Positions 1-62,606 of a stretch of DNA of 64,000 nt are shown piece after piece. The notes under the pieces were generated by a model. That model searched no databases and was not told the DNA's origin. It saw nothing but the letters and a program-made list of their open reading frames with translations. Source of the stretch: Terebella lapidaria (lineage: Eukaryota; Annelida; Polychaeta; Terebellida; Terebellidae); contig OX424555.1 of NCBI GenBank assembly GCA_949152475.1, positions 18,370,868 through 18,434,867 on the forward strand. The letters run 5' to 3'. Within the stretch, counting starts at the first letter, position 1. Every line of letters starts with the position of its first letter. A program made the translations under genes and the position numbers.

Positions 1-290
1 AGTATTAACTATATTTTCAGTTTTATGCACTTTTTTCCTGTTTACTTCTAGACATTGCGTACTTGCCGAGAAATATTCTGTGCACATTTGTTCGGGAAAG
101 AAAACATCCCACGTATTCATCAATATCTATGAACCAGTTTTGAGGAGTGGTGATTGGTTTTCTTTCCTGGATACTGCATCAGTATCAGCTTGCGATATTC
201 ATCAGGAAAATGAACAGTGCTACCTAATTCCTACGAGATACAATTCAGAAAGTAGTAGTGATGTGAAAATGTCTCCTATGCAGTAGTAAC
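1..290. repeat. Linker block L0, short form, 3' end only
   Basis: Matches the end of the short linker at 3,900-4,190 and 19,765-20,050. The window edge cuts off the rest. No gene is supported here. Confidence 0.8.
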
Positions 291-3200
291 TTTCAGATTT
301 TGATCCAATTTAATAAGTACATGTTCCTGCTGTTATTTCCTTCGATGTCGACACCTGACAAAACTTGTACAAGATCATGCATTTTCAAATAGACTGTAAC
401 TCAATCTGCAGATGTGACACAAATCTGAACAGGTATACCCCATCAATAGCAATCAGAATACATCAAGTTTTATCTTTTGATAGTTTTGCCAGTGTATATG
501 CCAGGTTCTGCATTCTCGACGTTTGTTTATGAATAAAACTGCAGAGGCGACATGGAACTGAGCAAAAAATCTTGATGTTGCTTTCATTGATGACATGCAC
601 TTCGATATCGAAATACCACGAGTTGTGTTCATATTTTCGTATGCTGCATGAATACATCTGTGATTCTCCATATCAAAGTATAGCTCTAAAATCCCCACCA
701 CAATTGAGATCCATGAGGTAAATTGCTGATTTTCTTTCTCTCGATATTCACTTCCTTTGTTGATATAGCTGCCAAATCAAGTGCCAGATCATGCATTTTC
801 ACCATCATGTTTACTGAAACTGCATATGTGACACGGAACTGAGCTAGCATAAAATACTCATATCTATTGTACAAGTGTAACTGCATTCTGGAGAATTAAT
901 AGACACCAAGTCGATCAAGGAGGATGAATGTTTTCAAAAAAGTATGCTGATCATATACACAATCGACAGGTCATTTGCTGGAATTATTCTTTGAATTAAC
1001 AATGTTACTGAACTTGATTTCATGGTTTGGTAACTGATACTACAATTTTTTAGAATACGTTTGAGCAAACAATTTCGGTTGCCCCGATTGCAATTAGTAT
1101 CAGCTTCCAATGTTCAATTAGGTCAATAGTGGTGTTGTGAAAATGTCTCCTTCTGAATAACACTGAGAATACATCATATTTTATCTGTTGATAGTTTTAC
1201 CAAGTCATGTGCCAGATCATGCATTTTCATGTTTTGTTAATGGATGAAACTGCAGAGGTGACACGGAACTGAGCAAAAATCTTGCTGTTGCTTTCTTTGA
1301 TGACATGCACTTCGATATCGAGATACCACGAGTTGTGTTCATATTTTCATATGCTACATGAATACATCTGTGATTCTCCATATCGAAGTACAGCTCTAGT
1401 ATTCCCACCACAATTGAGATCCATGAGGTAGATTGCTGAATCTCTTTTGCTGGATACTCACTTCCTATGTTGATATAGCTGCCAAGTCAAGTGCCAGATC
1501 ATGCATTTTCACAATTATGTTCACTGAAACTGCAGATGTGACACGGAACCGAGCTAGCATAAAATACTCATATCTATTGTACAATGTAACTGCATTCAGG
1601 AGAATTGATAGACACCAAGTCGACCAAGTAGTGTGAATGTTTGGAAAAAGCATTGAAATTATATAGGCAATCGATAAATCATTTGCTGGAGTTATTCTTT
1701 GAACTGGCAATCTTACTGCACTTGATTTCATGGTTTGACTGATACAACATTTTTGAGAATACGCTTGAACACGAAATTTTGATTGGCTTCTTTACAATTA
1801 GTATCAACTTGCAATATTCATCAGGAAAATAGACAGTTTTACCTAAGTACTACGTGATTCAATGCAAATAATATTAGTGTTGTAAAAGTGCCTCTTATAC
1901 AATAAGATTTTGAGATTTTCCAATAAGTTAATACTCCTTCTGTGTTTTCCTTTGACGTCAACACCTGTCAAAACTTGTGCCAGATCATGCATTTTCAAAT
2001 AGACTGTAACTGAAATTGCAGATGTGACACAAACCTGAACAGGTATACCTCCTGAATAACACTGAGAATACATCAAGTTTTATTTGATGATAGTTTTGCC
2101 AAGTCATGTGCCAGATCATGCATTTTCATGATTTGTTTATGAATGAAACTGCAGAGGTGACACGGAACTGAGCAAAAAATCTTGCTGTTGCTTTCTTTGA
2201 TGACATGCACTTCGATATCGAGATACCACGAGTTGTGTTCATATTATCATATACTACATGAATACATCTGTGATTCTCCATATCGAAGTTCAGCTCTAAT
2301 ATACCCGCCACAATTGAGATCTATGAGGTAGATTGCTGAATCTCTTTTGCTGTATTTTCACTTCCTATGTTGATATAGCTGCTAAGTCAAGTGCCAGATC
2401 ATGCATTTTCACAATTTTGTTCACTGAAACTGCAGATGTGACACGGAACCGAGCTAGCATAAAATAATCATATCTGTTGTACAAGTCTAACTGCATTCTG
2501 GAGAATTGATAGACACCAAGTCGACCAAGTAGTGTGAATGTTTGGAAAAAGCATTGAAATTATATAGGCAATCGATAAATCATTTGCTGGAGTCATTCTT
2601 TGAACTGACAATTTTACTGCAGTTGCTTACATGGATTGACTGATACTACACTTTTTGAGAATACGTTTGAACACGAAATTTTGATTGTTGGATCGCAATT
2701 AGTATCAAATTGCAATATTCATCAGGAAAATAGACAGTTTTAAGTACCACGTGATTCAATGCAGATAACATTAGTGCTGTAAAAGTGTCTTCTATACAAT
2801 AATATTTTGAGATTTTCTAATAAGTAAATATTCCTGCTGTGTTTTCCTTTGACGTCAAAACCTGTCAAAACTTGTGCCAGATCATGCATTTTCAAATAGA
2901 CTGTAATTGAAACTGCAGATGTTACACGAAACTGAACAAGTATACCTCCTGAATAACACTGAGAATACATCAAGTTTTATCTGTTGATAGTTTTGCCAAG
3001 TCTTGTGCCAGATCATGCATTTTCATGTTTTGTTATCAATGAAACTGCAGACGTGACACCGTACTGAGCAAAAAATCTTCCTGTTGCTTTATTTGATGAC
3101 ATGCACTTCGATATTGAGATACCACGAGTTGTGTTCATATTGTCACATGCTACATGAATACATCTGTGATTCTCCATACCGAAGTACAGCTCTAATATTC

Positions 3201-3354
3201 TCACATAAATGAGATCTATGGGGTAAATTGCTGAATCTCTTATGCTGGATATTCACTTCCTATGTTGATATAGCTACCAAGTCAAGTGCCAGATCGTGCA
3301 TTTTCACAATTATGTTCACTGAAACTGCAGACGTGACACGGACCTGAGCTAGCA
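291..3354. repeat. Satellite block S1
   Basis: Tandem units with the core (GTGCCAGATCATGCATTTTC followed by CTGCAGANGTGACACGG) at about 371 (C), 500 (A-prime variant), 781 (B), 1210 (A), 1491 (B), 1979 (C), 2108 (A), 2391 (B), 2874 (C), 3007 (A) and 3287 (B). A to B is about 284 bp, B to C about 485, C to A about 130, giving a unit near 0.9 kb. Between 890 and 1,200 the C core is missing and a variant segment takes its place. Short open frames recur in both strands but are a by-product of the repeat. Confidence 0.9.
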
Positions 3355-4190
3355 TAATTTAGAATATCCACAACAGAACAGTTCTACTAATCTCTATGGA
3401 AGCAAACTCACCTCAATTTTGTGCAGTATTTGTTCAGAAATTGCCAAAGTGTGTGGCGATGAATGGTTTGCAATGCCTGTTGATGTGATTTATATACCAA
3501 TCGAATTGCTTGTCAGAGCGAATTCATACACGAGAGACATGTTTTTTCCGAACAGATTTTGCGGCCCGTTGCACTCTAACACCCTTGCCAGTTTGCACGC
3601 TTGAACTGGTGGGTGTCAATGTTGCCCTACTGCAATTAACCACGACATGAATCAGTGAATTATAAATCTGTCATATTGCTGTATTTATTCTTGTAAATTT
3701 TACGCTAATTACTTCTTTAATCTGGTAATTAATTGATTGATTTGATATCAGTGATTACAAATTGGCTATCGAGAAATTCATGGTCAAATTGGCATGTCTG
3801 AATAGCAAAGACTAAACAAGAAAAAATAGGAACCAAAGGAAAACAGGTACTGTCTTGTATTGATTCGAAATATGATAAGTTATTGTTTGCATGATGTCAA
3901 GTATTAACTATATTTTCAGTTTTATGCACTTTTTTGCTGTTTACTTCCAGACATTGCGTACTTGCCGAGAAATATTCTGTGCACATTTGTTTGGGAAAGA
4001 AAACATCCCACGTATTCATCAACATTTATGAACCAGTTTTGAAGAGTGGTGATTGGTTTTCTTCGATGGATATTGCATCAGTATCAGCTTGCGATATTCA
4101 CCAGGAAAATAAACAGTGATACCTAATTCCTACGAGATACAATTCAGAGAGTAGTAGTGATGTGAAAATGTCTCCTATGCAGTAGTAATT
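3355..4190. repeat. Linker block L1, short form
   Basis: Starts just after a B core at TTTAGAATATCC and ends before the next C core. Copies are seen at 10.07-10.90, 19.21-20.06 kb and, in part, at 1-290. It has a recurring plus-strand frame near its start (3419-3604, 61 codons) containing a GDEWFAMPVDVIY-like stretch that I do not recognise. Confidence 0.85.
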
Positions 4191-7100
4191 TTCAGATTTT
4201 AATCCAATTCAATAAGTAAATATTCCTGCTGTGTTTTCCTTCAACGTCGACACCTGTCAAAACTTGTGCAAGATCATGCATTTTCAAATAGACTGTAACT
4301 GTGCAAGATCATGCATTTTCAAATAGAATGTAACTGAAACTGCAGATGTGACACAAAACTGAACAGGTCTACCTTCTCAATAGTACTCAGAATACATCAA
4401 GTTTAATGTTTTGATAGTTTTGCCAGTTTATATGCCAGGTCCTGCATTCTCGAGGTTTGTTTATGAATAAAACTGCAGAGGCGACATGGAACTGAGCAAA
4501 AAATCTTGATGTTGCTTTCATTGATGACATGCACTTCGATATCGAGATACCACGAGTAATATTCCCGCCACAATTGAGATCCTTGAGGTACATTGCTGAA
4601 TCTCTTTTGCTGAATATTCACTTCCTATGTTGATATAGCTGCCAAGTCAAGTGCCAGATCATGCATTTTCACAAATATGTTCACTGAAACTACAGATGTG
4701 ACACGGAACCGAGCTAGCATAAAATACTCATTGTACAAGTGTAACTGCATTCAGGAGAATTGATAGACACCAAGTCAACCAAGTAGTGTGAATGTTTGGA
4801 AAAAGCATGCAGAATATATAGGCAATCGCTAAATCATTTGTTGGAGTTATTTTTTTAACTGACAATCTTACTGCACTTGATTTCATGGTCGGACTGATAC
4901 TACACTTTTTGAGAATACGTTTGAAGACGAAATTTTGATTGGCTTGGTTGCAATTAGTATCAACTTGCAATACTCATCAGGAAAATAGGCAGTTTTACCT
5001 AAATACTACGTGATTCAGTGCAGATAGTATTAGTGCTGTAAAAGTGTCTCCTATGCAATAATAATTTGAAATTTTCCAATAAGTAAATATTCCTGCTGTG
5101 TTTTCCTTTGACGTCAACGCCTGTCCAAACTTGTTCCAGATCATGCATTTTCAAATAAAGTGTAACTGAAACTGCAGATGTGACACGAAACTGAACAGGT
5201 ATACCTCCTGAATAACACTGAGAATACATCAAGTTTTTGATGTTGATAGTTTTGCCAAGTCATGTGCCAGATCATGCATTTTCATGGTTTGTTTATGGAT
5301 GAAACTGCAGAGGTGACACGGAACAGAGCAAAAAATCTTGCTGTTGCTTTATTCGATGACATGCACTTCGATATTGAGATACCACGAGTTGTGTTCATAT
5401 TGTCATATGCTACATGAATACATCTGTGATTCTCCATACCGAAGTACAGCTCTAACATTCCCGCCACAATTGAGATCCTTGAGGTAAATTGCTGAATATC
5501 TTTTGCTGGATACTCACTTCCTATGTTGATGCCAAGTCATGTGCCAGATCATGCATTTTCTCAATTGTGTTCACTGAAACTACAGATGTGACACGAAACT
5601 GAAACAGGTATACTACATGTGCTACATGAATACATCTGTGATTCTCTATATCGAAGTACAGCTCTAATATTCCCGCCACAAAGGAGATCCATCAGGTAGA
5701 TTGCTGAACATCTTTTGCTGGATATTCGCTTCCTATGTTGATATAGCTGCCAAGTCAAGTGCCAGATCATGCATTTTCACAATTATGTTCACTGAAGCTG
5801 CAGATGTGACACGGAACCGAGCTAGCATAAAATACTCATATCTATTGTACAAGTGTAACTGCATTCTGGAGAATTAATAGACACCAAGTCGACCAAGTAG
5901 CGTGAATGTTTGGAAAAAGCATGCCGATTATATAGGCAATCGATAAATCATTTGCTGGAGTCATTCTTTGAACTGGCAATTTTACTGCAGTTGATTTTTC
6001 ACGACTTGGCTGATACTACACTTTTCGAGAATACGTTTGAACACGAAAATTTTATTTTTTGATTGCAATTGGCATCAACTTGCAATATTCATCAAGAAAA
6101 TAGACAGTTTGACCTAATTACTACGTGATTCAATGCAGATATTATTAGTGCTGTAAAAGTGTCTCCTATACAATAATATTTTGAGATTTTCTAATAAGTA
6201 AATATTCCTGCTGTGTTTTCTTTTGACGTCAACACCTGTCAAACCTTGTGCTAGATCATGCATTTCAAATAGACTGTAACTGAAACTGCAGATGTGACAC
6301 GAAACTGAACAGATATACCTCCTGAATAACACTGAGAATACATCTAGTTTTATCTGTTGATAGTTTTGCCAAGTCGTGTGCCAGATCATGCATTTTTCAT
6401 GTTTTGTTCATGAATGAAACTGCAGACGTGACACGGAACTGAACAAAAAATCTTGCTGTTGTTTTCTTTGATGACATGCACTTCGATATCGAGATACCAC
6501 GAGTTGTGTTCATATTGTCATATGCTACATGAATACATCTGTGATTCTCCATATCGAAGTACAGCTCTAATATTCCCACTACAGTTGAGATCCATGAGGT
6601 AGATTGCTGAATCTCTTTTGCTGGATATTCGCTTCCTATGTTGATATAGCTGCCAAGTCGAGTGCCAGATCATGCATTTTCACAACTATGTTCACTGAAA
6701 CTGCAGATGTGACACGGAACCGAGCTAGCATAAAATACTCATATCTATTGTACAAGTGTAACTGCATTCTGGAGAATTGATAGACACCAAGTCGACCAAG
6801 TAGTGTTAATGTTTCGAAAAAGTATGCAGATTATATAGGCAATCGATAAATCATTTTCTGATGTTTTTCTTTGAACTGGCAATCTTACTGCACTTGATTT
6901 CATGGTTTGACTGATACTACACTTTTTGAGAATACGTTTGAACACGAAATTTTTATTGGCTAGATTGCAATTAGTATCAACTTGCAATTTTCATCAGGAA
7001 AATAGACTGTTTTACCTAAGTACTACGTGATTCAATGCAGATAATATTAGTGCTGTAAAAGTGTCTCCTATACACTAATCTTTTAAAATTTCTCAATAAG

Positions 7101-10073
7101 TAAATATTCCTGCTGTGTTTTCCTTTGACGTCAATACCTGTCAAAACTTGTGCCAGATCATGCATTTACAAATAGAATGTAACTGAAACTGCAGATGTGA
7201 CACAAAACTGAACAGGTATACCTCCTGACCAACAATGAGATTACATCAAGTTTTATCTGTTGATAGTTTCGCCAAGTCATGTGCCAGATCATGCATTTTC
7301 ATGGTTTCTTTATGGATGAAACTGCAGAGGTGACACGGAACAGAGCAAAAAATCTTGCTGTTGCTTTATTTGATGACATGCATTTCGATATTGAGATACC
7401 ACTAGTTGTGTTCATATTGTCATATATTATGCTACATGAATACATCTGTGATTCTCCATATCGAAGTACAGCTCTAATATTCCCACTACAGTTGAGATCC
7501 ATGAGGTAGATTGCTGAATCTCTTTTGCTGGATACTCACTTCCTATGTTGATATAGCTGCCAAGTCAAGTGCCAGATCATGCATTTTCTCAATTGTGTTC
7601 ACTGAAACTGCAGATGTGACACGAAACTGAAACAGGAATACCTCCTGAATAACACTGAGAATACATCAAGTTTCATCTGTTGACAGTTTTGTCAAGTCAT
7701 GTGCAAGAACATGCATTTTCATGGTTTGTTTATGAATGAAACTGCAGAGGTGACACGGAACTAATCAAAACATCTTGCTGTTGCTTTCTTTGGTGACATG
7801 CACTTCGATATCGAGATACCACGAGTTGTGTTCATATTGTCATATGCTACATGAATACACCTGTGATTCTCCATATCGAAGTACAGCTCTAATATTCCCA
7901 CTACAGTTGAGATCCATGAGGTAGATTGCTGAATCTCTTTTGCTGGATACTCACTTCCTATGTTGATATAGCTGCCAAGTCAAGTGCCAGATCATGCATT
8001 TTCACAAGTATGTTCACTGAAACTGCAAATGTGACACGGAACCGAGCTAGCATAAAATACTCATATCTCTTGTACAATGTAACTGCATTCAGGAGAATTG
8101 ATAGACACGAAGTCGACCAAGTAGTGTGAATGTTTGGAAAAAGCGTTGAGATTATATAGGCAATCGATAAATCATTTGCTGGAGTTATTCTTTGAACTGG
8201 CAATCTTACGGCACTTGATTTCATGGTTTAACTGACAATACACTTTTTGAGAACACGTTTGAACAAAACATTTCGGTAGCTTCGATTGCAATTAGTATCA
8301 GCTTCCAATGTTCAATTAAGTAAATAGTGATGTTGTGAAAATGTCTCCTATACAATAGTCATTCTCAGATTTTAATCCAATTTAGAAAGTAAATATTTTT
8401 CAATTGTCTTGCTTGCAAAGGAAAATGTATAGTTTTACTAAGTCATGTCAGATTCAATTCAGAAAATAGCAGTGCTGTGTAAAATGTCTCCTATACAATA
8501 GTAATTTTCAGGTTTCAATCCGATTCAATAGGTTAATATTTCTGATGTTATTTCCTTTAACATCAACACATGTCACAACGTGTGCCAAGTCATGCATCCT
8601 CAAATAGACTGCAACTGAAACTGCAGATGTGACACAAAACTAAACACGTATACCTCCTGAATAACACTGAGAATACATCAAGTTTTATCTGTTGATCGTT
8701 TTGCCAAGTCATGTGCCAGATCAATCATTTTCATGTTCTGTTTATGAATGAAATTGCAGAGGTTACTTGGAGCTAAGCAAAAAAATCTTGCTATTGCTTT
8801 CTTTGATGATGCACTTCGATATCGAGGTACCACAAGTTGTGTTCATATTGTCATATGCTACATGAATACATCTGTGATTCTCCATATCGAAGTACAGCTC
8901 TAATATTCCTGCCACCATTGGGATCCATGAGGTAGATTGCTGAAACTCTTTTGCTGGATATTCAAACTCTAATATAAACACAACGAAATGGTATATATCG
9001 AAGTACAGCTCTAATATTTCCGCCACAATTGAGATCCATCACGTAGATTACTGAATCTCTTTTGCTGTATATTCACTTCCTATGTTGATATAGCTGCCAA
9101 GTCAAATGCCAGATCATGCATTTTCACAATTATGTACCGAAACTGCAGATGTGACACGGAACCGAGCTAGCATAAAATACTCATATCTATTGTACAAGTC
9201 TAACTGCATTCTGGAGAATTGATAAACACCAAATTGACCAAGTAGTGTTAATGTTTGGAAAAAGTAAACAGATTATATAGGCAATCAATAAATCATTTTC
9301 TGGAGTTATTCTTTGAACTGGCAATCTTACTGCACTTGATTTCATGGTTTGACTGAAACTACACTTTTTGAGAATACGTTTGAACACGAAATTTTTATTG
9401 GCTAGATTGCAATTAGTATCAACTTGCAATTTTAATCAGGAAAATAGACAGTTTTACCTGAGTACTACGTGATTCAATGCAGATAATATTAGTGCTGTAA
9501 AAGTGTCTCCTATACAATAAGATTTTGAGATTTTCTAAGAAGTAAATATTCCTTCTGTGATTTCCTTTGACGTCAACACCTGTCAAAGCTTGTGCCAGAT
9601 CATGCATTTTCAAATAGACTGTAACTGAAACTGCAGATGTGACAAAAAAACTGAACAGGTATACCTCCTGAATAACACTGAGAATACATCAAGTCTTATT
9701 TGTTGATAGTTTTGCCAAGTCATGTGCCAGATCATGCATTTTCATGTTTTGTTTTTGAATGAAACTGCAGAGGTGACACGGAACTGAGCAAAAAATCTTG
9801 CTGTTGCTTTCTTTGATGACATGCACTTCGATATTGAGATACCACGAGTTGTGTTCATATTGTCATATGCTACAGGAATACATCTGTGATTCTCCATACC
9901 GAAGTATAGCTCTAATATTCCCACATAAATGAGATCTATGAGGTAAATTGCTGAATCTTCTATGCTGGATATTCACTTACTTTGTTGATATAGCTGCCAA
10001 GTCAAGTGCCAGATCATGCATGTTCACAATTGTGTTCATTGCAACTGCAGACGTGGCACGGAACCGAGCTAGC
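4191..10073. repeat. Satellite block S2
   Basis: About 21 core copies in mostly A-B-C order, starting with a C core whose inner 36 bp are duplicated (about 4265-4340), followed by an A-prime core (about 4430). At 8.88-9.02 kb part of the A segment is duplicated. Perfect TGACGTCA sites occur in the C segments at 5109, 6224, 7126 and 9568. Confidence 0.9.
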
Positions 10074-10895
10074 ATCATTTAGAATACCCAGAACAGCACC
10101 GTCCTACTAATCTATATGGAAGCAAACTCATCTCAATTTTGTTCAGAATTTGCCAAATGTGTTGCTGTGTGTGGCGATGAATGGTTTGCAATGCCAGTTG
10201 ATGTGATTTATATACTAATCGAATTGCTTGTCAGAGCGAATTCATACACAGGAGACATGTTTTTTTCTGAACAGATTTTACGGCACGTTGCACTTTAACA
10301 CCCTTGCCAGTTTGCACGCTTGAACTGGCGGGTGTCAATGGTGGCCTACTGCAATTAACCACGACATGAAACAGTGAATTATAAATATGTCATATTGCTG
10401 TATTTATTCTTTTAAATTTCACGCTAATTACTCCTTTAATCTGATAACTAACTGATTGATGTGATATCAGTGATAACAAATTGGTTATCGGGAATTCATG
10501 GTCAATTTGGCATGCTTTAATAGCAAAGACTAGACAAGACAATAAAGGAACCAAAGGAAAACACATACTGATTTGAAATATGATAAGTTATTGTTTTCAC
10601 GATGTCAAGAAGTAACTATATTTTCAGCTTTATGCAATTTTTTGCTGGTTATTTCCAGACATTGCGTACTTGCAACAAAATTTCTGTGCACGTTTGTTTG
10701 GGAAAAAAACATCTCACGTTTTCATCCTTCTCTATGAACCAGTTTTGAGGATTGGCGATTGGTTTTCTTTCCTGGATACTGCATTAGTATCAGCTTGCGA
10801 TATTCATCAGGAAAATGAACAGTGATACCTTATTCCTACGAGATACAATTCAGAAAAAAGGAGAGCTGTGGAAATGTCTCCTATACAATAGTAAT
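10074..10895. repeat. Linker block L2, short form
   Basis: Same order of sequence as the block at 3,355-4,190. The recurring frame (10116-10298) here starts at an earlier ATG and changes frame before its end, so the linker peptide is not conserved as one frame. Confidence 0.85.
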
Positions 10896-13800
10896 TTTAA
10901 GATTTTAATCCATTTTAATAAGTACATGTTCATGCTGTTATTTCCTCCGACGTTGACACCTGTCAAAACTTGTGCCAGATCATGCATTTTCAAATAGACT
11001 GTAACTGAAACTGCAGATGTGACACGAAACTGAACAGGTATACCTCCTGAATAACACTGAGAATACATCATGTTTTATCTTTTGATAGTTTTGCCAGATC
11101 ATATGTCATATCCTGCATTCTCGAGGTTTGTTTATGAATAAAACTGAAGATTTGACATGGAACTGAGCAAAAGATCTTGATGTTGTTTTCTTTGATGACA
11201 TGCACTTCGATATCGAGATACCACGAGTTGTGTTCATATTGTCATATGCTACATGGATACATCTGTGATTCTCCATATGGAAGTACAGCTCTTATATTCC
11301 AGCCACAATTGAGATCCATGAAGTAGATTGCTGAATCTCTTTTGCTGGATATTCACTTCTCATGTTGATATAGCTGCCAAGTCGATTGCCAGATCATGCA
11401 TTTTCACAACTATGTTCACTGAAACTGCAGATGTGACACAGAACCGAGCTAGAATAAATACTCATATCTATTGTACAAGTGTAACTGCATTCTGGAGAAT
11501 TGATAGACACCAAGTCAACTAAGTAGTGTGAATGTTTGGAAAAAGTATGCAGATTATATAGGCAATCGCTAAATCATTTGTTGGAGTTATTCTTTGCACT
11601 GGCAATCTTACTGCACTTGATTTCATGGTCGGACTGATACTACACTTTTTGAGAATACGTTTGAAGACGAAATTTTGATTGGCTTGATTGCAATTAGTAT
11701 CAACTTGCAATACTCATCAGGAAAATAGGCAGTTTTACCTAAATACTACGTGATTCAATGCAGATAATATTAGTGCTGTAAAAGTGTCTCCTATGCTATA
11801 ATAATTTGAAATTTTCCAATAAGTAAATATTCCTGCTGTGTTTTCCTTTCACGTCAACACCTGTCCAAACTTGTGCCAGATCATGCATTTTAAAATACAG
11901 TGTAACTGAAACTGCAGATGTGACACGAAACTGAACAGGTATACCTCCTGAATAACACTGAGAATACATCAAGTTTTTGCTGTTGATAGTTTTGTCAAGT
12001 CATGTGCCAGATCATGCATTTTCATGGTTTGTTTATGAATGAAACTGCAGAGGTGACACGGAACTAAGCAAAAAATCTTGCTGTTGCTTTTTTTGGTGAC
12101 ATGCACTTCGATATCGAGATACCACGAGTTGTGTTCATATTGTCATATGCTACATGAATACATCTGTGATTCTCTATATCGAAGTACAGCTCTAATATTC
12201 CCGCCACAAAGGAGATCCATGAGGTAGATTGCTGAATCTCTTTTGCTGGATACTCACTTCCTATGTTGATATAGCTGCCAAGTCAAGTGCCAGATCATGC
12301 ATTTTCACAATTATGTTCACTGAAACTGCAGATGTGACACGGAACCGAGTTAGCATAAAATACTCATTGTACAAGTGTAACTGCATTCTGGAGAATTGAT
12401 AGACACCAAGTCTTTGGAAAAAGCATGCAGATTATATAGGCAATCGGTACATCATTTGATGGAGTTATTCTTTGAACTGGCATTCTTACTGCCCTTGATT
12501 TCATGGTTTGGTAACTGATACCACACTTTTTGAGAATACGTTTGAACACGAAATTTTGATTGGCTTGATTGCAATCAGTATCAACTTGCAATATTCATCA
12601 GGAAAATAGACAGTTTTACCTAAGAACTACGTGATTCAATGCAGATAATATTATTGTTGTAAAAATGTCTCCTATACAATAATAATTTGAGATTTTCTAA
12701 TAAGTAAATATTCCTGCTGTGTTTTCCTTTGACGTCAACACCTGTCAAAACTTGTGCCGGATCATGCATTTTCAAATAGACTGTAACTGAAACTGCAGAT
12801 GTGACACGAAACTGAACAGGTATACCTCCTCGATAACACTGAGAATACATCAAGTTTTATCTGTTGATAGTTTTGCCAAGTCATGTGCCAGATCATGCAT
12901 TTTCACAATTATTTTCACTAAAACTGCAGATGTGACACGGAACTGAGCAAAAAATCTTGCTGTTGCTTTCTTTGATGAAATGCACTTCGATATCGAGATA
13001 CCACGAGTTGTGTTCATATTGTCATATGCTACATGAATACACCTGTGATTCTCCATATCGAAGTACAGCTCTAATATTCCCACTACAGTTGAGATCCATG
13101 AGGTAGATTGCTGAATCTCTTTTGCTGGATACTCACTTCCTATGTTGATATAGCTGCCAAGTCAAGTGCCAGATCATGCATTTTCACAATTATGTTCACT
13201 GAAACTGCAGATGTGACACGGAACCGAGCTAGCATAAAATATTCATATCTATTGTACAAGTGTAACTGCATTCTGGAGAATTGATAGACACCAAGTCGAT
13301 CAAGTAGTGTGAATGTTTGGCAAAAGTATGCAGATTATCTAGGCAATGGATAAATCATTTGCTGGAGTCATTCTTTGAACCTGCAATCTTACTGCAGTTG
13401 ATTTTTCACGGCTTGGCTGATACTACACTTTTCGAGAATACGTTCGAACACGGAAATTTGATTGGTTGATTGCAATTAGCATCAAATTGCAATATTCATC
13501 AGGAAAATAGACAGTTTGACCTAAGTACTACGTGATTCAATGCAGATAATATTAGTGCTGTAAAAGTGTCTCCTATACAATAATATTTTGAGATTTTCTA
13601 ATAAGTAAATATTCCTGCTGTGTTTTTCTTTGACGTCAACACCTGTCATACCTTGTGCCAGATCATGCATTTCAAATAAACTGTAACTGAAATTGCAGAT
13701 GTGACACGAAACTGAACAGATATACCTCCTGAATAACACTGAGAATACATCAAGTTTTATCTGTTGATAGTTTTGCCAAGTCATGTGCCAGATCATGCAT

Positions 13801-16681: not shown

Positions 16682-16834
16682 TAGGTTACCACACCTTTGG
16701 TCCTATAAACTATTGCCGTGACGTTGCGTCCGTTGTCCGTCAACAATTTTATCTTTAAAGTTTACAGTCAGATTTTCCTGAAATTTTGCACAAAATGCCT
16801 AAAAATATTTCGAGAGGGGGGTATTTTTAGTTTT
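16682..16834 (+). repeat. Dispersed GTTGCGTCCGTC repeat, copy U1, truncated
   Basis: Starts TTAGGTTACC, carries the GTTGCGTCCGTTGTCCGTC stretch and ends abruptly at AGTTTTCTCCTATACAATAA, where satellite resumes. Longer copies lie at 33.87, 39.37 and 44.94 kb, and an inverted one at 59.65 kb, so this is a dispersed repeat. The motif is familiar from molluscan genomes. Confidence 0.75.
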
Positions 16835-32302: not shown

Positions 32303-33870
32303 ATTTAGAATACCCAAAACAGCACAGTTCTACTAATCTCTATGGAAGCAAACTCACCTCAATGTTGTGCGGTATTTGTTCAGAATTTGCCAAATGTGTT
32401 GCTGTGTGTGTCGATGAATGGTTTTCAATACCAGTTGATCTGATTTATATACCAATCGAATTGCTTGTTGGAGAGAATTCATACAGAAGAGACATGTTTT
32501 TTTCTGAACAGATTTTACGGCCTGTTGCATTCTAACACCCTTGCCAGTTTGTGCGCCTGAACTAGTGTGTGTCAATGGCGCGCAATTGCAATTAACTACT
32601 ACAAGAATAAATGAAACATAAATCTGTCACATTGCTGTCTTGATCCGTTTAAATTTCATGCCAATTATTTTTTGTAATCTGGTAATTAATTGATTGTGAT
32701 GATATATTGATTACAAATTGTCTTTCGAGAAGTGTATGGTCGAATAGTATCTCTGAATAGAAACCTAAAACAAGACAATGAAGGAACCAAGTAAAAAACG
32801 TGAACTGTCTTGTGTGTTGATTTAAAACCTGATAACTTATTGATTGCAAGATATCAAGAAGTAACTGCCTTTTCATTTCTGCGTATTTTTGGTTTGGACA
32901 TGCATACTTAGTCATATTTGCATACTTTTTAATATATACTAAAACATATGTATAGACACGCGATAATACTAATACTAAGTCATACAAGTTATAGTCAGAA
33001 GCTTCCATATTTCGAAGATAGGGAAAGCCCTAGACACAAAGTAATTGAGCAGGGAACTGGTACTGCCCTTGTTGTGGAACTGAACCAGTGGGCACCAAAC
33101 GCTAGCACCAAGCGCCTGGTATTACCTATGTGTCAGCTCCTATGAATGAATATAGTAGCACTACCTGGTTGACCAAGCATACGCAAACTAGAAATACCTC
33201 CCATGATACGCAGCTAGTTTAAATTTTGATATGGGAAGGAGTGAGCATTTGAATTGGCGCGTTTTAACATTGGTTTCACTGGAAGTTGGAATTACTGAAA
33301 TGTTACCTAGAGATGCGAAATCTTACGTAAAAGATAATATGCCATATGTGGGAGATACTAAGATGTATCAAACAAATACGTGGGACACAACAAATGACAC
33401 GACTGGGCTTCATAATACCCCTTGAATATGACTTATTATCTCATCATATCAAACAAGAGTACAGCGATTTAATAGTGGCTAGAATACATGTATGTCACGG
33501 AGACCAGTTAATTTACTCTCAGCACATCAAAGTGGGCAATCAACCGCCTAAGGTGATTTAGGGAATGGAAATCAGAAGCATAGATATAGGAATAAACATA
33601 TATGGAATATCTATAATCAGAAGGCTTTCATGTTGCCCAGCCGTATACAAATTGGCATTACCCTCACACTATGTACCTGTTCATAACTGGGTGTCGTGTG
33701 AGAGTGGTCAATAACCGCTAAACAATTAACACCAAAATTTCATGTTTAAACTTGGCTTGGTGATGGAATCTTTAAGAATATGTGAGATAATTTGATCATT
33801 AGGGCAGTAGGTTTGGGACTGCCATTATTCATGACAGAGTTATCAGGTTATGAAACCATACTCTGATTTT
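32303..33870. repeat. Linker block L6, long form
   Basis: Long linker, first of three closely related copies (others at 37,798 and 43,291). From about 33,230 onward it is nearly identical to the second copy; before that they differ at scattered bases. No gene recognised. Confidence 0.85.
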
Positions 33871-34144
33871 TAGGTTACCGAACCTTTGGTCTTATAACTT
33901 ATTGCCGTGATGTTGCGTCCGTCGTCCGTTGTCCGTCAACAATTTTATCTTTAGAGTTTACAGTCGGATTTTTCTGAAACTTTGCACAAAATGCCTAAAA
34001 ATATTTGGAGAGGGAGGTATTTTTTAGTTTTATGATTTTCGCTTTTTTTTCAAAATCGCGGCCATTTATTTCGAGAGGGAGGTATTTTTAGTTTTTTTAT
34101 TTTCGCTTTTTTTTTCAAAATCGCGGCCGTTTATTTCGAGAGGG
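33871..34144 (+). repeat. Dispersed GTTGCGTCCGTC repeat, copy U2
   Basis: Begins TAGGTTACCGAACC. Its end holds tandem copies, about 63 bp apart, of a GGAGGTATTTTTTAG ... AAATCGCGGCC unit (near 34,014 and 34,077). A solo LTR has inserted into a further copy, whose remainder lies at 35,045-35,096. Confidence 0.75.
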
Positions 34145-35044
34145 TGTCACGAATATGTGACATGTTGTTTACTAGATTATTCCCGTACCGGGCTTCACGT
34201 TATTGTTGAGCAGTGGCAAGTCCCATTGCGAGTGGTACCCGAAGAGTGAAGTATTATAGTTGTGTTATTTCAGAGTTGAGTTTAGTTATATGTATATTAT
34301 TTCAGTGGAATTCGTGGCAGAGCAATGTATATATGTTATTGCATTAATTTGGTTAATCCTGTTGTGCTTGTTCACGCCTGGTGACCACAGACGCTCACTA
34401 GGATATATAAACTCGAGGCTAATTTGTGTTTGTTACAATGCAACCGGGAGCTCAGCGACTGCACCAGACAGAGGCAGTAGTGATAGTGCGATGTAGTGCT
34501 ATGTGATATTACCAGTATTATGTGAAATTGTGTGGAGGACTGACACTTTCTCCGTGAGTACATGTATATATGTTGGATTTTATCGATAGGTCGGGGATAG
34601 GGTAAGATAGTTAGGTGGGTTAGGACATGTTGTGCTATTTGTTTGATTTATTTAGCTTCAGGGTCGGGAACCCGATATGATGTAACAGACGGTGTGACAG
34701 ACGCCTAGAACAGGGCTGAACTAAAGAGCCGACAACAGTCATACGGGGGAAGAACTACGTGGGAAAACTCAAGAATTCAAGTCGGGTCGCCGCTAACCTC
34801 CAAGCAACGCGGGAGCGTCTAGTACAGCAGTTCAAGATTGAAATTATTGTAACGGGAGCAGTGTTGCTCGAAGCGCTATTTTAATATTACACAGCTGTCA
34901 TTTATTGTACATATTGTCTACTTATTAAACGTTTAAAATTATATTTGGTTGTCCGAGTTAGTTATTTGTCCAATATATGAGTCCGAGTGAATTAGGTACC
35001 AAGAGGTGCTTTATATGTCTGACCAGTCACAGAATATCGTGACA
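34145..35044 (+). mobile_element. Solo LTR of a retrotransposon, copy 1 (900 bp)
   Basis: Starts TGTCACGA and ends TCGTGACA, the TG...CA inverted ends typical of LTRs. It is flanked by the 5-bp duplication GAGGG (34140-34144 and 35045-35049). It has a TATA box (TATATAA at 34404-34410) and no coding sequence, so internal LTR-LTR recombination probably removed the body of the element. The family is not identified; a 5-bp duplication fits Ty3/gypsy and several others. Confidence 0.85.
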
Positions 35045-35099
35045 GAGGGATGTATTTTTTAGTTTTTTGATTTTCGCATTTTTTTTCAGAATCGCGGCC

Positions 35100-37797
35100 G
35101 AAATACAATAATCTTTTTAAAAACATTGATAAGTAAATATTCCTGCTCTGTTTTCCTTTGACGTCATCACCTGTCAAAACTTGTGCCAGATCATGCATTT
35201 ACAAATAGAATGTAACTGAAACTGCAGATGTGACACAAAACTGAACAGGTATACCTCCTGAATAACACTAAGAATACATCAAGTTTTATCTGTTGTTAGT
35301 TTTGCCAAGTCATGTGCCAGATCAGGCATTTTCATGTTTTGTTTATGAATGAAACTGCAGAGGTGACACGGAACTGAGCAAAAAATCTTGCTAATACTTT
35401 CTTTGATGACATGCACTTCGATATTGAGATACCACGAGTTGTGTTCATATTGTCATATACTACATGAATACATCTGTGATTCTCCATTTCGAAGTACAGC
35501 TCTGATATTCCCACCACAATTGAGATCCTTGAGGTACATTGCTGAATCTCTTTTGCTGGATATTCACTTCCTATGTTGATACAGCTGCCAAGTCAAGTGC
35601 CAGATCATGCATTTTCACTTATGTTCACTGAAACTGTAGACGTGACACGGAACCGAGCTAGCATAAAATACTCATATCTATTGTACAAGTGTAACTGCAT
35701 TCTGGAGAATTGATAAACACCAAATTGACCAAGTAGTGTGAACGTTTGGAAAAAGTATGCAGATTATATAGGCAATCGATAAATCATTTTCTGGAGTTAA
35801 ACTTTGAACTGGCAATCTTACTGGCAAACTTGTGCCAGATCATGCATTTACAAATAGAATGTAACTGAAACTGCAGATGTGACACGGAACTGAACAGGTA
35901 TACCTTGCGAGCTAGCAAAAAATACTCGTATCTATTGTAGAATGTAAATGCATTCAGGAGAATTGATAAACACCAAGGTGACCAAGCAGTGTGAATGTTT
36001 CGAAAAAGCATTGAGATTATATAGGCAATCGATAAATCATTTGCTGGAGTTATTATTTGAACTGGCAATCTTACTGCACTTGATTTCATGGTTTGACTGA
36101 TACTACACTTTTTGAGAATACGTTTGAACACGAAATTTTGATTGGCTTGATTACAATTAGTATCAACTTGCAATATTCAACAGGAAAATAGACAGTTTTA
36201 CCTAAGTACTACGTGATTCAATGCAGATAATATTAATGATGTAAAAATGTCTCCTATACAATAATAATTTGAGATTTTCTAATAAGTAAATATTCCTGTT
36301 GTGTTTTCCTTCAACGTCATTACCTGTCAAAACTTGTGCCAGATCATGCATTTTCAAATAGACTGTAACTGAAACTGCAGATGTGACACAAAACTGAACA
36401 GGTATACCTCCTGAATAACACTGAGAATGCATCAAGTTTTATCTGTTGATAGTTTTGCCAAGTCATATGCCGGATCATGCATTTTCATGTTTTGTTTATG
36501 AATGAAACTGCAGAGGTGGCACGGAACTGAGCAAAAAATCTTGCTGTTGCTTTATTTGATGACATGCACTTCGATATCGAGATACCACGAGTTGTGTTCA
36601 TATGGTCATATGCTGCATGAATACATCTGTGATTCTCCATATCGAAGTACAGCTCTAATATTCCCGCCACAATTGAGATCCTTGAGGTACATCGCTGAAT
36701 CTCTTTTGCTGAATATTCACTCCCTATGTTGATATAGCTGCCGAGTCAAGTGCCAGATCATGCATTTTCACAATTATGTTCACTGAAACTGCACATGTGA
36801 CACGGAACCGAGCTAGCAAAAAATACTCATATCTATTGTAGAATGTAAATGCATTCAGGAGAATTGATAAACACCAAGGTGACCAAGCAGTGTGAATGTT
36901 TCGAAAAAGCATTGAGATTATATAGGCAATCGATAAATCATTTGCTGGAGTTATTATTTGAACTGGCAATCTTACTGCACTTGATTTCATGGTTTGACTG
37001 ATACTACACTTTTTGAGAATAAGTTTGAACACGAAATTTTGATTGGCTTGATTACAATTAGTATCAACTTGCAATATTAAACAGGAAAATAGACAGTTTT
37101 ACCTAAGTACTACGTGATTCAATGCAGATAATATTAATGATGTAAAAATGTCTCCTATACACAATTATGTTCACTGAAACTGCAGATGTGACACGGAACC
37201 GAGCTAGCATGAAATACTCATATCTATTGTACAAGTGTAACTGCATTCTGGAGACTTGATAGACACCAAGTCGAACAAGAAATTTGACTGTTTGGAAAGA
37301 GTATGCAGATTGTATAGGCATTCGGTAGGTCATTTGCTGGAATTATTCTGTGAACTAACAACCTTACTGAACTTGATTCATGGTTTTGTAACTGATACCA
37401 CACTTTTCGAGAATACGTTTGAGCACACAATTTCGATTGCCTTGATTGCAATTAGTATCAGCTTGCAATATTTATCAGAAACTGAATATTTTCACCCAAA
37501 CCGTGCACGCTTCAATTCAGAGAATAGAACAGTTGTAAAAATGTCTCCTATTCAAAAACAATTTTCAGACTTTAACCTAATTTAATAAGTGAATACTTGA
37601 TCGCCTTGCGTGCATCTAGTATTATCTTGAACGTTTTGTATATGAGACCACAACGGAGATCCATGAGGCAGATTGCTAAATCTTTTTTGCTGGATATTCA
37701 CTTCATGTTGATATAGCTGCCAAGCCAAGTGCCAGATCGTGCATTTTCACAATTATGTTCACTGAAACTGCAGACATGACACGCAACCGAGCTAGCA
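35100..37797. repeat. Satellite block S7
   Basis: C (35,185), A, B (35,599), shortened C (35,834), then regular units. At about 37,160 a C segment is joined directly to a B core; relative to the copy at 31.1-31.7 kb this is a 513-bp deletion. Perfect TGACGTCA at 35159. Confidence 0.88.
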
Positions 37798-39367
37798 TAA
37801 TTTAGAATACCCAAAACAGCACAGTTCTACTAATCTCTATGGAAGCAAACTCACCTCAATGTTGTGCGGTATTTGTTCAGAATTTGCCAAATGTGTTGCT
37901 GTGTGTGGCGATGAATGGTTTTCAATACCAGTTGATCTGATTTATATACCAATCGAATTGCTTGTTGGAGAGAATTCATACAGAAGAGACATGTTTTTTT
38001 CTGAACAGATTTTACGGCCTGTTGCACCCTAACACCCTTGCCAGTTTGTGCGCCTGAACTAGTGTGTGTCAATGGCGCGCAATTGCAATTAACTACTACA
38101 AGAATAAATGAAACATAAATCTGTCACATTGCTGTCTTGATCCGTTTAAATTTCATGCCAATTATTTTTTGTAATCTGGTAATTAATTGATTGTGGTGAT
38201 ATATTGATTACAAATTGGCTTTCGAGAAGTGTATGGTCGAATAGTATCTCTGAATAGAAACCTAAAACAAGACAATGAAGGAACCAAGTAAAAAACGTGA
38301 ACTGTCTTGTGTGTTGATGTAAAACTTGATAACTTATTGATTGCAAGATATCAAGAAGTAACTGCCTTTTCATTTCTGCGTATTTTTGGTTTGGACATGC
38401 ATACTTAGTCATATTTGCATACTTTTTAATATATACTAAAACATATGTATAGACACGCGATAATACTAATACTAAGTCACACAAGTTACAGTCAGAAGCT
38501 TCCATATTTCGAAGATAGGGAAAGCCCTAGACACAAAGTAATTGAGCAGGGAACTGGTACTGCCCTTGTTGTGGAACTGAACCAGTGGGCACCAAACGCT
38601 AGCACCAAGCGCCTGGTATTACCTATGTGTCAGCTCCTATGAATGAATATAGTAGCACTACCTGGTTGACCAAGCATACGCAAACTAGAAATACCTCCCA
38701 TGATACGCAGCTAGTTTAAATTTTGATCTGGGAAGGAGTGAGCATTTGAATTGGCGCGTTTTAACATTGGTTTCACTGGAAGTTGGAATTACTGAAATGT
38801 TACCTAGAGATGCGAAATCTTACGTAAAAGATAATATGCCATATGTGGGAGATACTAAGATGTATCAAACAAATACGTGGGACACAACAAATGACACGAC
38901 TGGGCTTCATAATACCCCTTGAATATGACTTATTATCTCATCATATCAAACAAGAGTACAGCGATTTAATAGTGGCTAGAATACATGTATGTCACGGAGA
39001 CCAGTTAATTTACTCTCAGCACATCAAAGTGGGCAATCAACCGCCTAAGGTGATTTAGGGAATGGAAATCAGAAGCATAGATATAGGAATAAACATATAT
39101 GGAATATCTATAATCAGAAGGCTTTCATGTTGCCCAGCCGTATACAAATTGGCATTACCCTCACACTATGTACCTGTTCATAACTGGGTGTCGTGTGAGA
39201 GTGGTCAATAACCGCTAAACAATTAACACCAAAATTTCATGTTTAAACTTGGCTTGGTGATGGAATCTTTAAGAATATGTGAGATAATTTGATCATTAGG
39301 GCAGTAGGTTTGGGACTGCCATTATTCATGACAGAGTTATCAGGTTATGAAACCATACTCTGATTTT
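37798..39367. repeat. Linker block L7, long form
   Basis: Second copy of the long linker in the tandem duplication. It is nearly identical to 43,291-44,550 and, from about 38,727, to 33,230-33,870. Confidence 0.85.
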
Positions 39368-39641
39368 TAGGTTACCGAACCTTTGGTCTTATAACTTATT
39401 GCCGTGATGTTGCGTCCGTCGTCCGTTGTCCGTCAACAATTTTATCTTTAGAGTTTACAGTCGGATTTTTCTGAAACTTTGCACAAAATGCCTAAAAATA
39501 TTTGGAGAGGGAGGTATTTTTTAGTTTTATGATTTTCGCTTTTTTTTCAAAATCGCGGCCATTTATTTCGAGAGGGAGGTATTTTTAGTTTTTTTATTTT
39601 CGCTTTTTTTTTCAAAATCGCGGCCGTTTATTTCGAGAGGG
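39368..39641 (+). repeat. Dispersed GTTGCGTCCGTC repeat, copy U3
   Basis: Same as the copy at 33,871, displaced by 5,497 bp, and likewise interrupted by the solo LTR. Confidence 0.75.
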
Positions 39642-40541
39642 TGTCACGAATATGTGACATGTTGTTTACTAGATTATTCCCGTACCGGGCTTCACGTTAT
39701 TGTTGAGCAGTGGCAAGTCCCATTGCGAGTGGTACCCGAAGAGTGAAGTATTATAGTTGTGTTATTTCAGAGTTGAGTTTAGTTATATGTATATTATTTC
39801 AGTGGAATTCGTGGCAGAGCAATGTATATATGTTATTGCATTAATTTGGTTAATCCTGTTGTGCTTGTTCACGCCTGGTGACCACAGACGCTCACTAGGA
39901 TATATAAACTCGAGGCTAATTTGTGTTTGTTACAATGCAACCGGGAGCTCAGCGACTGCACCAGACAGAGGCAGTAGTGATAGTGCGATGTAGTGCTATG
40001 TGATATTACCAGTATTATGTGAAATTGTGTGGAGGACTGACACTTTCTCCGTGAGTACATGTATATATGTTGGATTTTATCGATAGGTCGGGGATAGGGT
40101 AAGATAGTTAGGTGGGTTAGGACATGTTGTGCTATTTGTTTGATTTATTTAGCTTCAGGGTCGGGAACCCGATATGATGTAACAGACGGTGTGACAGACG
40201 CCTAGAACAGGGCTGAACTAAAGAGCCGACAACAGTCATACGGGGGAAGAACTACGTGGGAAAACTCAAGAATTCAAGTCGGGTCGCCGCTAACCTCCAA
40301 GCAACGCGGGAGCGTCTAGTACAGCAGTTCAAGATTGAAATTATTGTAACGGGAGCAGTGTTGCTCGAAGCGCTATTTTAATATTACACAGCTGTCATTT
40401 ATTGTACATATTGTCTACTTATTAAACGTTTAAAATTATATTTGGTTGTCCGAGTTAGTTATTTGTCCAATATATGAGTCCGAGTGAATTAGGTACCAAG
40501 AGGTGCTTTATATGTCTGACCAGTCACAGAATATCGTGACA
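39642..40541 (+). mobile_element. Solo LTR, copy 2 (900 bp)
   Basis: Displaced from the first LTR by exactly 5,497 bp, with the same length and the same GAGGG flanks. It arose by duplication of the whole segment, not by a second insertion. Confidence 0.85.
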
Positions 40542-40595
40542 GAGGGATGTATTTTTTAGTTTTTTGATTTTCGCATTTTTTTTCAGAATCGCGGC

Positions 40596-43290
40596 CGAAA
40601 TACAATAATCTTTTTAAAAACATTGATAAGTAAATATTCCTGCTCTGTTTTCCTTTGACGTCATCACCTGTCAAAACTTGTGCCAGATCATGCATTTACA
40701 AATAGAATGTAACTGAAACTGCAGATGTGACACAAAACTGAACAGGTATACCTCCTGAATAACACTAAGAATACATCAAGTTTTATCTGTTGTTAGTTTT
40801 GCCAAGTCATGTGCCAGATCAGGCATTTTCATGTTTTGTTTATGAATGAAACTGCAGAGGTGACACGGAACTGAGCAAAAAATCTTGCTAATACTTTCTT
40901 TGATGACATGCACTTCGATATTGAGATACCACGAGTTGTGTTCATATTGTCATATACTACATGAATACATCTGTGATTCTCCATTTCGAAGTACAGCTCT
41001 GATATTCCCACCACAATTGAGATCCTTGAGGTACATTGCTGAATCTCTTTTGCTGGATATTCACTTCCTATGTTGATACAGCTGCCAAGTCAAGTGCCAG
41101 ATCATGCATTTTCACTTATGTTCACTGAAACTGTAGACGTGACACGGAACCGAGCTAGCATAAAATACTCATATCTATTGTACAAGTGTAACTGCATTCT
41201 GGAGAATTGATAAACACCAAATTGACCAAGTAGTGTGAACGTTTGGAAAAAGTATGCAGATTATATAGGCAATCGATCATTTTCTGGAGTTAAACTTTGA
41301 ACTGGCAATCTTACTGGCAAACTTGTGCCAGATCATGCATTTACAAATAGAATGTAACTGAAACTGCAGATGTGACACGGAACTGAACAGGTATACCTTG
41401 CGAGCTAGCAAAAAATACTCGTATCTATTGTAGAATGTAAATGCATTCAGGAGAATTGATAAACACCAAGGTGACCAAGCAGTGTGAATGTTTCGAAAAA
41501 GCATTGAGATTATATAGGCAATCGATAAATCATTTGCTGGAGTTATTATTTGAACTGGCAATCTTACTGCACTTGATTTCATGGTTTGACTGATACTACA
41601 CTTTTTGAGAATACGTTTGAACACGAAATTTTGATTGGCTTGATTACAATTAGTATCAACTTGCAATATTCAACAGGAAAATAGACAGTTTTACCTAAGT
41701 ACTACGTGATTCAATGCAGATAATATTAATGATGTAAAAATGTCTCCTATACAATAATAATTTGAGATTTTCTAATAAGTAAATATTCCTGTTGTGTTTT
41801 CCTTCAACGTCATTACCTGTCAAAACTTGTGCCAGATCATGCATTTTCAAATAGACTGTAACTGAAACTGCAGATGTGACACAAAACTGAACAGGTATAC
41901 CTCCTGAATAACACTGAGAATGCATCAAGTTTTATCTGTTGATAGTTTTGCCAAGTCATATGCCGGATCATGCATTTTCATGTTTTGTTTATGAATGAAA
42001 CTGCAGAGGTGGCACGGAACTGAGCAAAAAATCTTGCTGTTGCTTTATTTGATGACATGCACTTCGATATCGAGATACCACGAGTTGTGTTCATATGGTC
42101 ATATGCTGCATGAATACATCTGTGATTCTCCATATCGAAGTACAGCTCTAATATTCCCGCCACAATTGAGATCCTTGAGGTACATCGCTGAATCTCTTTT
42201 GCTGAATATTCACTCCCTATGTTGATATAGCTGCCGAGTCAAGTGCCAGATCATGCATTTTCACAATTATGTTCACTGAAACTGCACATGTGACACGGAA
42301 CCGAGCTAGCAAAAAATACTCATATCTATTGTAGAATGTAAATGCATTCAGGAGAATTGATAAACACCAAGGTGACCAAGCAGTGTGAATGTTTCGAAAA
42401 AGCATTGAGATTATATAGGCAATCGATAAATCATTTGCTGGAGTTATTATTTGAACTGGCAATCTTACTGCACTTGATTTCATGGTTTGACTGATACTAC
42501 ACTTTTTGAGAATAAGTTTGAACACGAAATTTTGATTGGCTTGATTACAATTAGTATCAACTTGCAATATTAAACAGGAAAATAGACAGTTTTACCTAAG
42601 TACTACGTGATTCAATGCAGATAATATTAATGATGTAAAAATGTCTCCTATACACAATTATGTTCACTGAAACTGCAGATGTGACACGGAACCGAGCTAG
42701 CATGAAATACTCATATCTATTGTACAAGTGTAACTGCATTCTGGAGACTTGATAGACACCAAGTCGAACAAGAAATTTGACTGTTTGGAAAGAGTATGCA
42801 GATTGTATAGGCATTCGGTAGGTCATTTGCTGGAATTATTCTGTGAACTAACAACCTTACTGAACTTGATTCATGGTTTTGTAACTGATACCACACTTTT
42901 CGAGAATACGTTTGAGCACACAATTTCGATTGCCTTGATTGCAATTAGTATCAGCTTGCAATATTTATCAGAAACTGAATATTTTCACCCAAACCGTGCA
43001 CGCTTCAATTCAGAGAATAGAACAGTTGTAAAAATGTCTCCTATTCAAAAACAATTTTCAGACTTTAACCTAATTTAATAAGTGAATACTTGATCGCCTT
43101 GCGTGCATCTAGTATTATCTTGAACGTTTTGTATATGAGACCACAACGGAGATCCATGAGGCAGATTGCTAAATCTTTTTTGCTGGATATTCACTTCATG
43201 TTGATATAGCTGCCAAGCCAAGTGCCAGATCGTGCATTTTCACAATTATGTTCACTGAAACTGCAGACATGACACGCAACCGAGCTAGCA
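40596..43290. repeat. Satellite block S8
   Basis: Near-identical to the satellite at 35,100-37,797. A 4-bp deletion at about 41,276 changes the offset from 5,497 to 5,493. It shares the 513-bp deletion (junction near 42,653). Perfect TGACGTCA at 40656. Confidence 0.88.
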
Positions 43291-46290: not shown

Positions 46291-46307
46291 CCTTTCTTAG
46301 CCTAAGG

Positions 46308-60240: not shown

Positions 60241-60243
60241 TAT

Positions 60244-62600: not shown

Positions 62601-62606
62601 AGTTCA

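Follow-up and report, generated by a model that had tools for sequence, protein, structure and literature searches.

Organisation of the repeat array

We analysed a window of 64,000 nucleotides from the polychaete Terebella lapidaria, corresponding to positions 18370868-18434867 of contig OX424555.1 (C1 below) in a genome of 762 Mb. At 367..43293, on the minus strand, the window contains a tandem array (array 1) of about 34 units of roughly 902 bp, with 106 copies of a core resembling the microRNA family mir-277 and 34 matches resembling mir-317. The array is probably an amplified cluster of microRNA genes. The cores, found with a fuzzy scan, start between 367 and 43222 and fall into three subtypes (33 A, 38 B and 35 C); an initial annotation of this DNA had put their number at about 90. 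Its description of a satellite with a 0.9-kb unit of three core copies was borne out, the unit consensus being 902 bp with a mean pairwise identity of 90.4% in 11 clean units. So was the fixed order of the cores, with spacings of about 284, 485 and 130 bp: the typical core-to-core distances are 283 bp (A to B), 486 bp (B to C) and 131 bp (C to A), and canonical C-A-B-C steps make up 90 of the 105 neighbouring pairs (30 CA, 31 AB and 29 BC, some of the last with unusual spacing). One clean unit, with C, A and B in plus-strand order, lies at 1977..2873 (minus strand). Tandem Repeats Finder could not show the 0.9-kb period because it lists periods of up to 500 only.

The core is real, but the length of about 75 bp first assigned to it needs adjusting: homology between A and B extends over about 88 bp and that of C over only 62-69 bp. 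In a FastTree phylogeny all 33 A cores fall in a single clade (support 0.90), whereas the B and C clades gather 37 of 38 and 33 of 35 copies (support 0.57 and a weak 0.20). The three cores left outside these clades, all on the minus strand, are chimaeras. Tree and alignment identify a core with a B-type left and a C-type right part (5541..5616) and a B/C core whose crossover deleted the spacer of about 485 bp (7569..7644); the third carries a B-type hairpin core in A flanks (12885..12960). Tandem multimers whose subtypes are more alike between units than to other subtypes make this a higher-order satellite, a label that describes DNA organisation and is compatible with coding for microRNAs. 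The order of events first proposed, from triplication of a core through divergence and fixation within the 0.9-kb unit to amplification, appears to be right.

Array 1 is interrupted at seven places by a sequence, J, which also forms its right flank from 43294 onward. The first J segment spans 3358..4071, and others start near 10076, 15039, 19214, 25669, 32304 and 37801. The recurrence of the right flank inside the array indicates duplication of whole blocks that included flank as well as array sequence. A tandem duplication of about 5.5 kb is present at 31661..44730 (31661-39239 versus 37160-44730, 99.5% identity). Two further inserts were seen. One, at 22544-23592, breaks a unit between consensus positions 805 and 802 and holds an open reading frame (ORF) that by eye resembles the C-terminal part of a non-LTR (long terminal repeat) reverse transcriptase, with no Pfam match. 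The other, within a J segment at 34145-35044, is a 900-bp solo-LTR-like element with ends TGTCAC...GTGACA and flanking 5-bp GAGGG direct repeats; an offset of 5497 bp places a second copy at 39642-40541.

Hairpins and their likeness to mir-277 and mir-317

The initial annotation noted that both ends of the core are conserved while its centre differs. This is correct: 41 of 42 arm columns are identical across the subtype consensuses, whereas centre and flanks differ widely. It overlooked, however, that the conserved ends pair with each other, forming the arms of one imperfect dyad with 16 of 19 pairs and one bulge in B and C and 15 of 19 pairs in A. Read on the minus strand, each core forms an imperfect hairpin in which the conserved ends are arms of about 22 nt and the variable centre is the loop; the unit is therefore a set of RNA hairpins. 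Also overlooked was another hairpin, in the spacer between A and B; it is the strongest fold of the unit. Triplication and amplification stand, while mere shared ancestry, offered as one explanation of the conserved ends, fails to account for 41 of 42 identical arm columns beside a divergent centre and flanks.

Each unit carries three mir-277-like hairpins and one mir-317-like hairpin, in the minus-strand order B-317-A-C. Minimum free energies of the minus-strand consensuses are -29.5 (C), -26.9 (A) and -28.7 kcal/mol (B, z -3.25), and that of the 88-nt mir-317-like stretch is -36.8 kcal/mol (z -6.5); all four are lower than their plus-strand counterparts. Minus-strand examples in one stretch of the array are C at 1961..2046 (Rfam mir-277 at 1962-2045, 26.2 bits, gathering score 43), A at 2092..2179, the spacer hairpin at 2206..2290 (Rfam mir-317, 19.6 bits, gathering score 56) and B at 2375..2460; the best-scoring mir-317-like copy lies at 7378-7469, also on the minus strand (24.1 bits). 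Animal microRNA genes are recognised by at least 16 paired positions between the arms and a loop of at least 8 nt. At least 16 of 22 3p nucleotides are paired in 97 of the 106 mir-277-like copies, and the gap between the arms is 13-18 nt in 97. The mir-317-like hits number 36, at least two of them fragments, with a recognisable 3p arm in 34. At least 16 3p nucleotides are paired in 31 of these 36. Such pairing and arm spacing are those of animal microRNA genes. In a shuffle-based scan, a plus-strand stretch at unit-consensus position 741 has a z of -3.4.

No Rfam match was obtained at the gathering thresholds. The microRNA lead came only from a scan at the level of E-values: in a 2.8-kb stretch, mir-277 matched one C and one A core, mir-317 matched twice in the A-B spacer and MIR8675 matched once on a C core, always on the minus strand. 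Extending the scan to 1..46500 at E<=10 gave 48 matches (24 to mir-277, 16 to mir-317 and eight to other families), and all 40 to mir-277 and mir-317 lie on the minus strand. In the control flank (43300..64000) eight Rfam matches were found at E<=1, none to either family. The covariance cut-offs of MIR-277 (RF00730) and MIR-317 (RF00720) are not reached, hence the qualifier "-like". J segments gave no Rfam match to mir-277 or mir-317; the J right flank does include a possible further hairpin at 44044-44146 (minus strand, -32 to -34 kcal/mol, z -2.7 to -3.8).

Both families have a protostome range, and mir-317, mir-277 and mir-34 are usually single-copy, with normally one copy each. The Terebella sequences agree with the Rfam 3p consensus of mir-317 in 22 of 25 positions, a level that none of 3000 shuffles reached (maximum 19), and with that of mir-277 in 17 of 23 (reached by 23 of 3000). 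Against miR-277a-3p and miR-317-3p sequenced from the snail Biomphalaria glabrata, as given in excerpts of two reports (PMC12261956, PMC7328434), identities are 19/23 and 20/24, each attained by 0 of 5000 shuffles; none of 5000 equalled the match to the first 20 nt of snail miR-317. The mir-277 arm holds the snail-like AUGCAU, which, with the range of the two families, suggests a protostome and perhaps lophotrochozoan host. The seed AAATGCA is intact in 92 of 106 mir-277-like copies and GAACACA in 30 of 36 mir-317-like hits, so that a 3p arm with the AAAUGCA seed sits on a hairpin, and one with the GAACACA seed on a stable hairpin, as in the respective families. The predicted 3p products would start with (U/A)AAAUGCAUGAUCUGGCAC and UGAACACAACUCGUGGUAUCUC. 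According to excerpted text, miR-317-277-34 is among the conserved clusters "as observed in most arthropods" (PMC7523956); the joint presence of mir-277-like and mir-317-like sequences on one strand is telling.

Constraint was measured in the 11 clean units of array 1, with significance assessed by circular shifts. Within subtypes, nucleotide diversity (pi) is 0.062 in cores and 0.103 in the rest of the unit, a value as low being obtained in about 1 in 1000 shifts; core centres (pi 0.088) do not share the reduction seen in whole cores. Two arms kept and a loop left free is how microRNA precursors vary. Taken together the eight arms have a pi of 0.0585, compared with 0.1050 in the remaining sequence (a value as low in 3 of 901 shifts), and the reduction is stronger in the four 3p arms (0.0486, 1 of 901) than in the 5p arms (0.0684, 49 of 901). 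In 98 mir-277-like copies, eight in a near-identical duplicate being excluded, departures from the 3p consensus affect 2.2% of cells in the seed and 4.6% in the remainder. In the lower stems 84.4% of cells are paired; slid registers give 25-52%, and shuffles average 76.9%, with none of 500 reaching the observed value.

The second array and the neighbourhood

Array 1 runs left past the window edge to about C1:18363069, adding 22 mir-277-like and eight mir-317-like pattern matches. Still further left, weak pattern matches at C1:18344343-18354021 were considered as older copies and rejected, since Rfam matched neither mir-277 nor mir-317 there at E<=2. A perfect inverted repeat with 25-bp arms about 73 nt apart was also noted left of the array (stretch L009, 6085-6207).

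A second array (array 2), in the opposite orientation, starts near C1:19373051; about 0.96 Mb separates it from where array 1 ends. The 46.9 kb analysed contain 157-159 mir-277-like and 52 mir-317-like matches in a strict period of 897/898 bp. Array sequence was present in seven of seven samples from 19425001 to 19480001, ending near 19480750, and absent from all 13 other samples (eight beyond array 2 and five between the arrays). The positive samples therefore give array 2 a length of about 108 kb and, by extrapolation, about 120 units. In the genome at large, 40 scored matches (of 295 candidates) all lie in two places on one contig. Array 2 is nearly uniform, with a pi of 0.0030 in 51 units; TGAAAATGCATGATCTGGCAC occurs in 151 of 159 matches and one mir-317 3p arm is shared by 51 of 52. 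In its first units (stretches L014, L015 and L026), mir-277 accounts for 15 of 16 Rfam matches at E<=2.

In array 2 the A hairpin combines A flanks with a B-like core, as does the copy at 12885 in array 1, and the array-1 stretch closest to an array-2 unit (12138-13919, 94.5%) includes this very copy. The consensuses of the two arrays differ at 2 of 176 arm sites, 7 of 173 sites in other hairpin parts and 17 of 549 spacer sites; the seven non-arm hairpin differences are the converted A loop. The form UGUAAAUGCA is present in eight copies in the window and in none in the analysed part of array 2.

A TATA-like site, CCTATATAA (2560..2569, minus strand), with TATATA in 10 of 11 clean units, lies in the spacer between B and C on the upstream side of the B hairpin. 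Its pi of 0.018 falls in the lowest 2.5% of 10-bp spacer stretches, the site having been chosen after looking. Judging by its sequence, it is a candidate promoter. Array 1 is downstream of a gene for a DHX36-like helicase on the same strand (47627..58198, minus); in the direction of transcription, about 4.3 kb separate the end of the gene from the array. An exon within 50202-50600 matches DHX36 (E 5.8e-24) and Pfam HA2; the remaining exons and both gene ends were read by eye from ORFs. Inside the gene, a 21-bp palindromic unit, TATCTCATACGTATGAGATAC, is repeated about 17 times at 49942-50299, and seven of the eight sub-threshold Rfam matches in 43300..64000 fall on or within three bases of this repeat. 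Other features of the flank are a minisatellite at 45325-46269, with units of about 134 bp rich in TGACCTTTGACCT, that is AGGTCA direct repeats, which we take to resemble nuclear-receptor DR1 elements, and a 256-aa ORF (60533-61303, minus strand) that by eye resembles the end of a non-LTR reverse transcriptase, without a Pfam match. A tRNA search found none, and the exact 20-base core pattern matched 0 stretches in viral and prokaryote collections.

Interpretation and comparison with known systems

The satellite is best read as a tandemly amplified cluster of mir-277-like and mir-317-like microRNA genes, to which we assign a probability of about 0.8. Directly observed are the hairpin folds, the family likeness, the fact that arms vary less than the rest of the unit in array 1, how many copies the window contains and the homogeneity of array 2; expression, processing and timing are inferred. 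Each array would be transcribed into long primary microRNAs, with transcription perhaps starting at a TATA-bearing promoter in every unit or reading through from the DHX36 side. Drosha and Dicer would then release 3p microRNAs of about 22 nt with seeds AAAUGCA and GAACACA, in a dose rising with copy number, as proposed for mir-427. Unequal crossing-over, together with gene conversion between like hairpins, may have made the arrays grow and kept their copies alike, and the converted form, a B core in A flanks, would now fill a younger array 2. More tentatively, the locus could be a protostome counterpart of the miR-430/427 arrays, with some 160 units holding by extrapolation about 490 mir-277-like and 160 mir-317-like hairpins, a promoter in every unit and microRNA released in a burst at a single stage, either embryonic genome activation or the germ line. 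If so, satellite-scale microRNA amplification would have arisen independently from an old two-family cluster.

Several results count against the microRNA reading. All Rfam scores (18-28 bits) are below the gathering cut-offs, the best being 28.2 against 43 for mir-277 and 24.1 against 56 for mir-317; some of these hairpins are also matched by MIR8675 and mir-1298, and other microRNA models score below threshold on unrelated sequence. The match to the first 20 nt of snail miR-277a, as excerpted, is moderate (reached by 14 of 5000 shuffles). No mir-34 partner was found, either as an Rfam match in the array or as a seed match near the unit hairpins. By a shuffle-based scan the C region has a z of -3.4 on the plus strand and -2.2 on the minus strand. 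In stretches L014, L015 and L026 of array 2, mir-317 has no Rfam match at E<=2, and the arms of array 2 hold nine of 35 variable columns where 6.9 are expected, showing no depletion. Pairing of the arms is matched by 111 of 500 shuffles; lower-stem pairs changed on both sides number three, within the one to five of slid controls; and arm changes are mostly one-sided (108 versus four compensatory). The one-sided changes and few compensations place the constraint mainly on sequence, as expected of mature microRNAs. Preservation of the dyad for pairing or as a cruciform was rejected, core DNA folds being weak (z -1.4 to -2.6) and arm changes rarely compensated.

Three alternative accounts were considered. 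That array 1 is a decaying relic, once microRNA genes and by now mostly unexpressed satellite-like DNA, with array 2 as the working locus, is possible without being favoured, and for array 2 it is compatible with the microRNA interpretation. Array 1 is broken up by J segments, by insertions resembling LTR and non-LTR elements and by chimaeras, and 14 of its 106 copies lack the exact seed; this would fit decay, as would the homogeneity of the 51 array-2 units; fold and seed are nevertheless kept in most array-1 copies, and arms vary less than the remainder across the 11 clean units. We consider it unlikely that this is an ordinary higher-order satellite whose dyad either binds a protein, like a CENP-B box, or promotes recombination. 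Such a satellite could have dyad arms conserved around a variable centre, mismatched arm positions conserved as much as paired ones, and chimaeras at cores, and excerpts of a study of Meloidogyne satellites (PMC3694981) tell a comparable motif story. On that account one would not expect a resemblance to two microRNA families that occur as a cluster, another strong hairpin in a spacer or conservation biased to 3p arms and seeds; nor are cores a recombination hot spot, since a hand tally has 6 of 15 rearrangements touching them (P=0.12, no excess). The protein-binding site suggested in the initial annotation thus fits less well than pre-miRNAs, given the likeness to mir-277 and mir-317, the folds and the 3p-biased conservation.

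A plain satellite with a chance dyad, as the sole account, was rejected in view of arm conservation, Rfam likeness, folds and 3p-biased constraint. A protein-coding unit was also rejected: consensus ORFs do not exceed 86 aa, and the longest has a pi of 0.115, 0.090 and 0.115 by codon position, with no third-position excess; open frames of up to 137 aa in single unit copies are taken as chance. Quite improbable, finally, is a source of hairpin-siRNAs or piRNAs, or a foldback or MITE-like element, in place of canonical microRNA genes. Multi-copy hairpins and transposon-like fragments in the array would suit it, but the short stems show mismatches and bulges like those of microRNAs, the cores keep a nearly fixed register, and the 40 genome matches scored, out of 295 candidates, are confined to the two places on one contig, a sample that leaves room for dispersed copies.

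A repeat finder may well take the locus for a satellite and mask it, and microRNA arrays of this size may therefore be hidden in other invertebrate genomes. A diverged array 1 beside a near-uniform array 2 shows concerted evolution of microRNA-like genes, including a fixed hairpin conversion, and the locus, if expressed, would let one test the independent evolution of extreme microRNA dosage outside vertebrates. Among the papers listed by full-text searches of the open literature, no title reports arrays of mir-277 or mir-317; subscription papers and databases such as MirGeneDB were outside the scope of these searches.

Among systems described in the excerpted literature, the closest in design are the miR-430 clusters of fish, which were found with repeat-finding pipelines and consist of tandem units of 251-1443 bp (with a/b/c triplets in zebrafish), units in some species holding putative promoters (PMC10417697). 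Both designs join several variants of one microRNA in a tandem unit; the fish family is a different one, while the Terebella unit mixes two families in a protostome host and is known here from sequence. As excerpted, the arthropod mir-317/277/34 cluster (PMC7523956) shares two of its three families, adjoining on one strand, but here they occur 3+1 per unit in many units, and no mir-34 was found. Hessian fly microRNA families of up to 91 genes likewise conserve the microRNA and its pairing regions and not the surroundings; on the evidence of the excerpts (PMC3608969) those families are without known counterparts in other insects and their flanks are little alike, whereas in Terebella entire units are repeated in tandem and the families are ancient. 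The Meloidogyne satellites share a short conserved CENP-B-box-like motif in diverged higher-order repeats with junctions at the motif, though their description in the excerpts mentions neither hairpins nor microRNA likeness (PMC3694981). A CENP-B-box-like motif is a 17-bp box with the bases essential for CENP-B, and Helentron-borne (HINE) repeats are marked by subTIRs, a microsatellite and a 3' palindrome surrounding the array (PMC7492417). Also close in design is mir-427 of Xenopus, for which excerpts of the report give 171 tandem precursors in X. tropicalis and 33 over 55 kb in X. laevis, together with a dose explanation (PMC10569791). It too is a large tandem precursor array, but of a single family, with X. 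laevis copies in both orientations against one orientation per array here, as far as analysed. If expressed, the Terebella arrays would rank with the largest microRNA arrays described in the excerpted literature.

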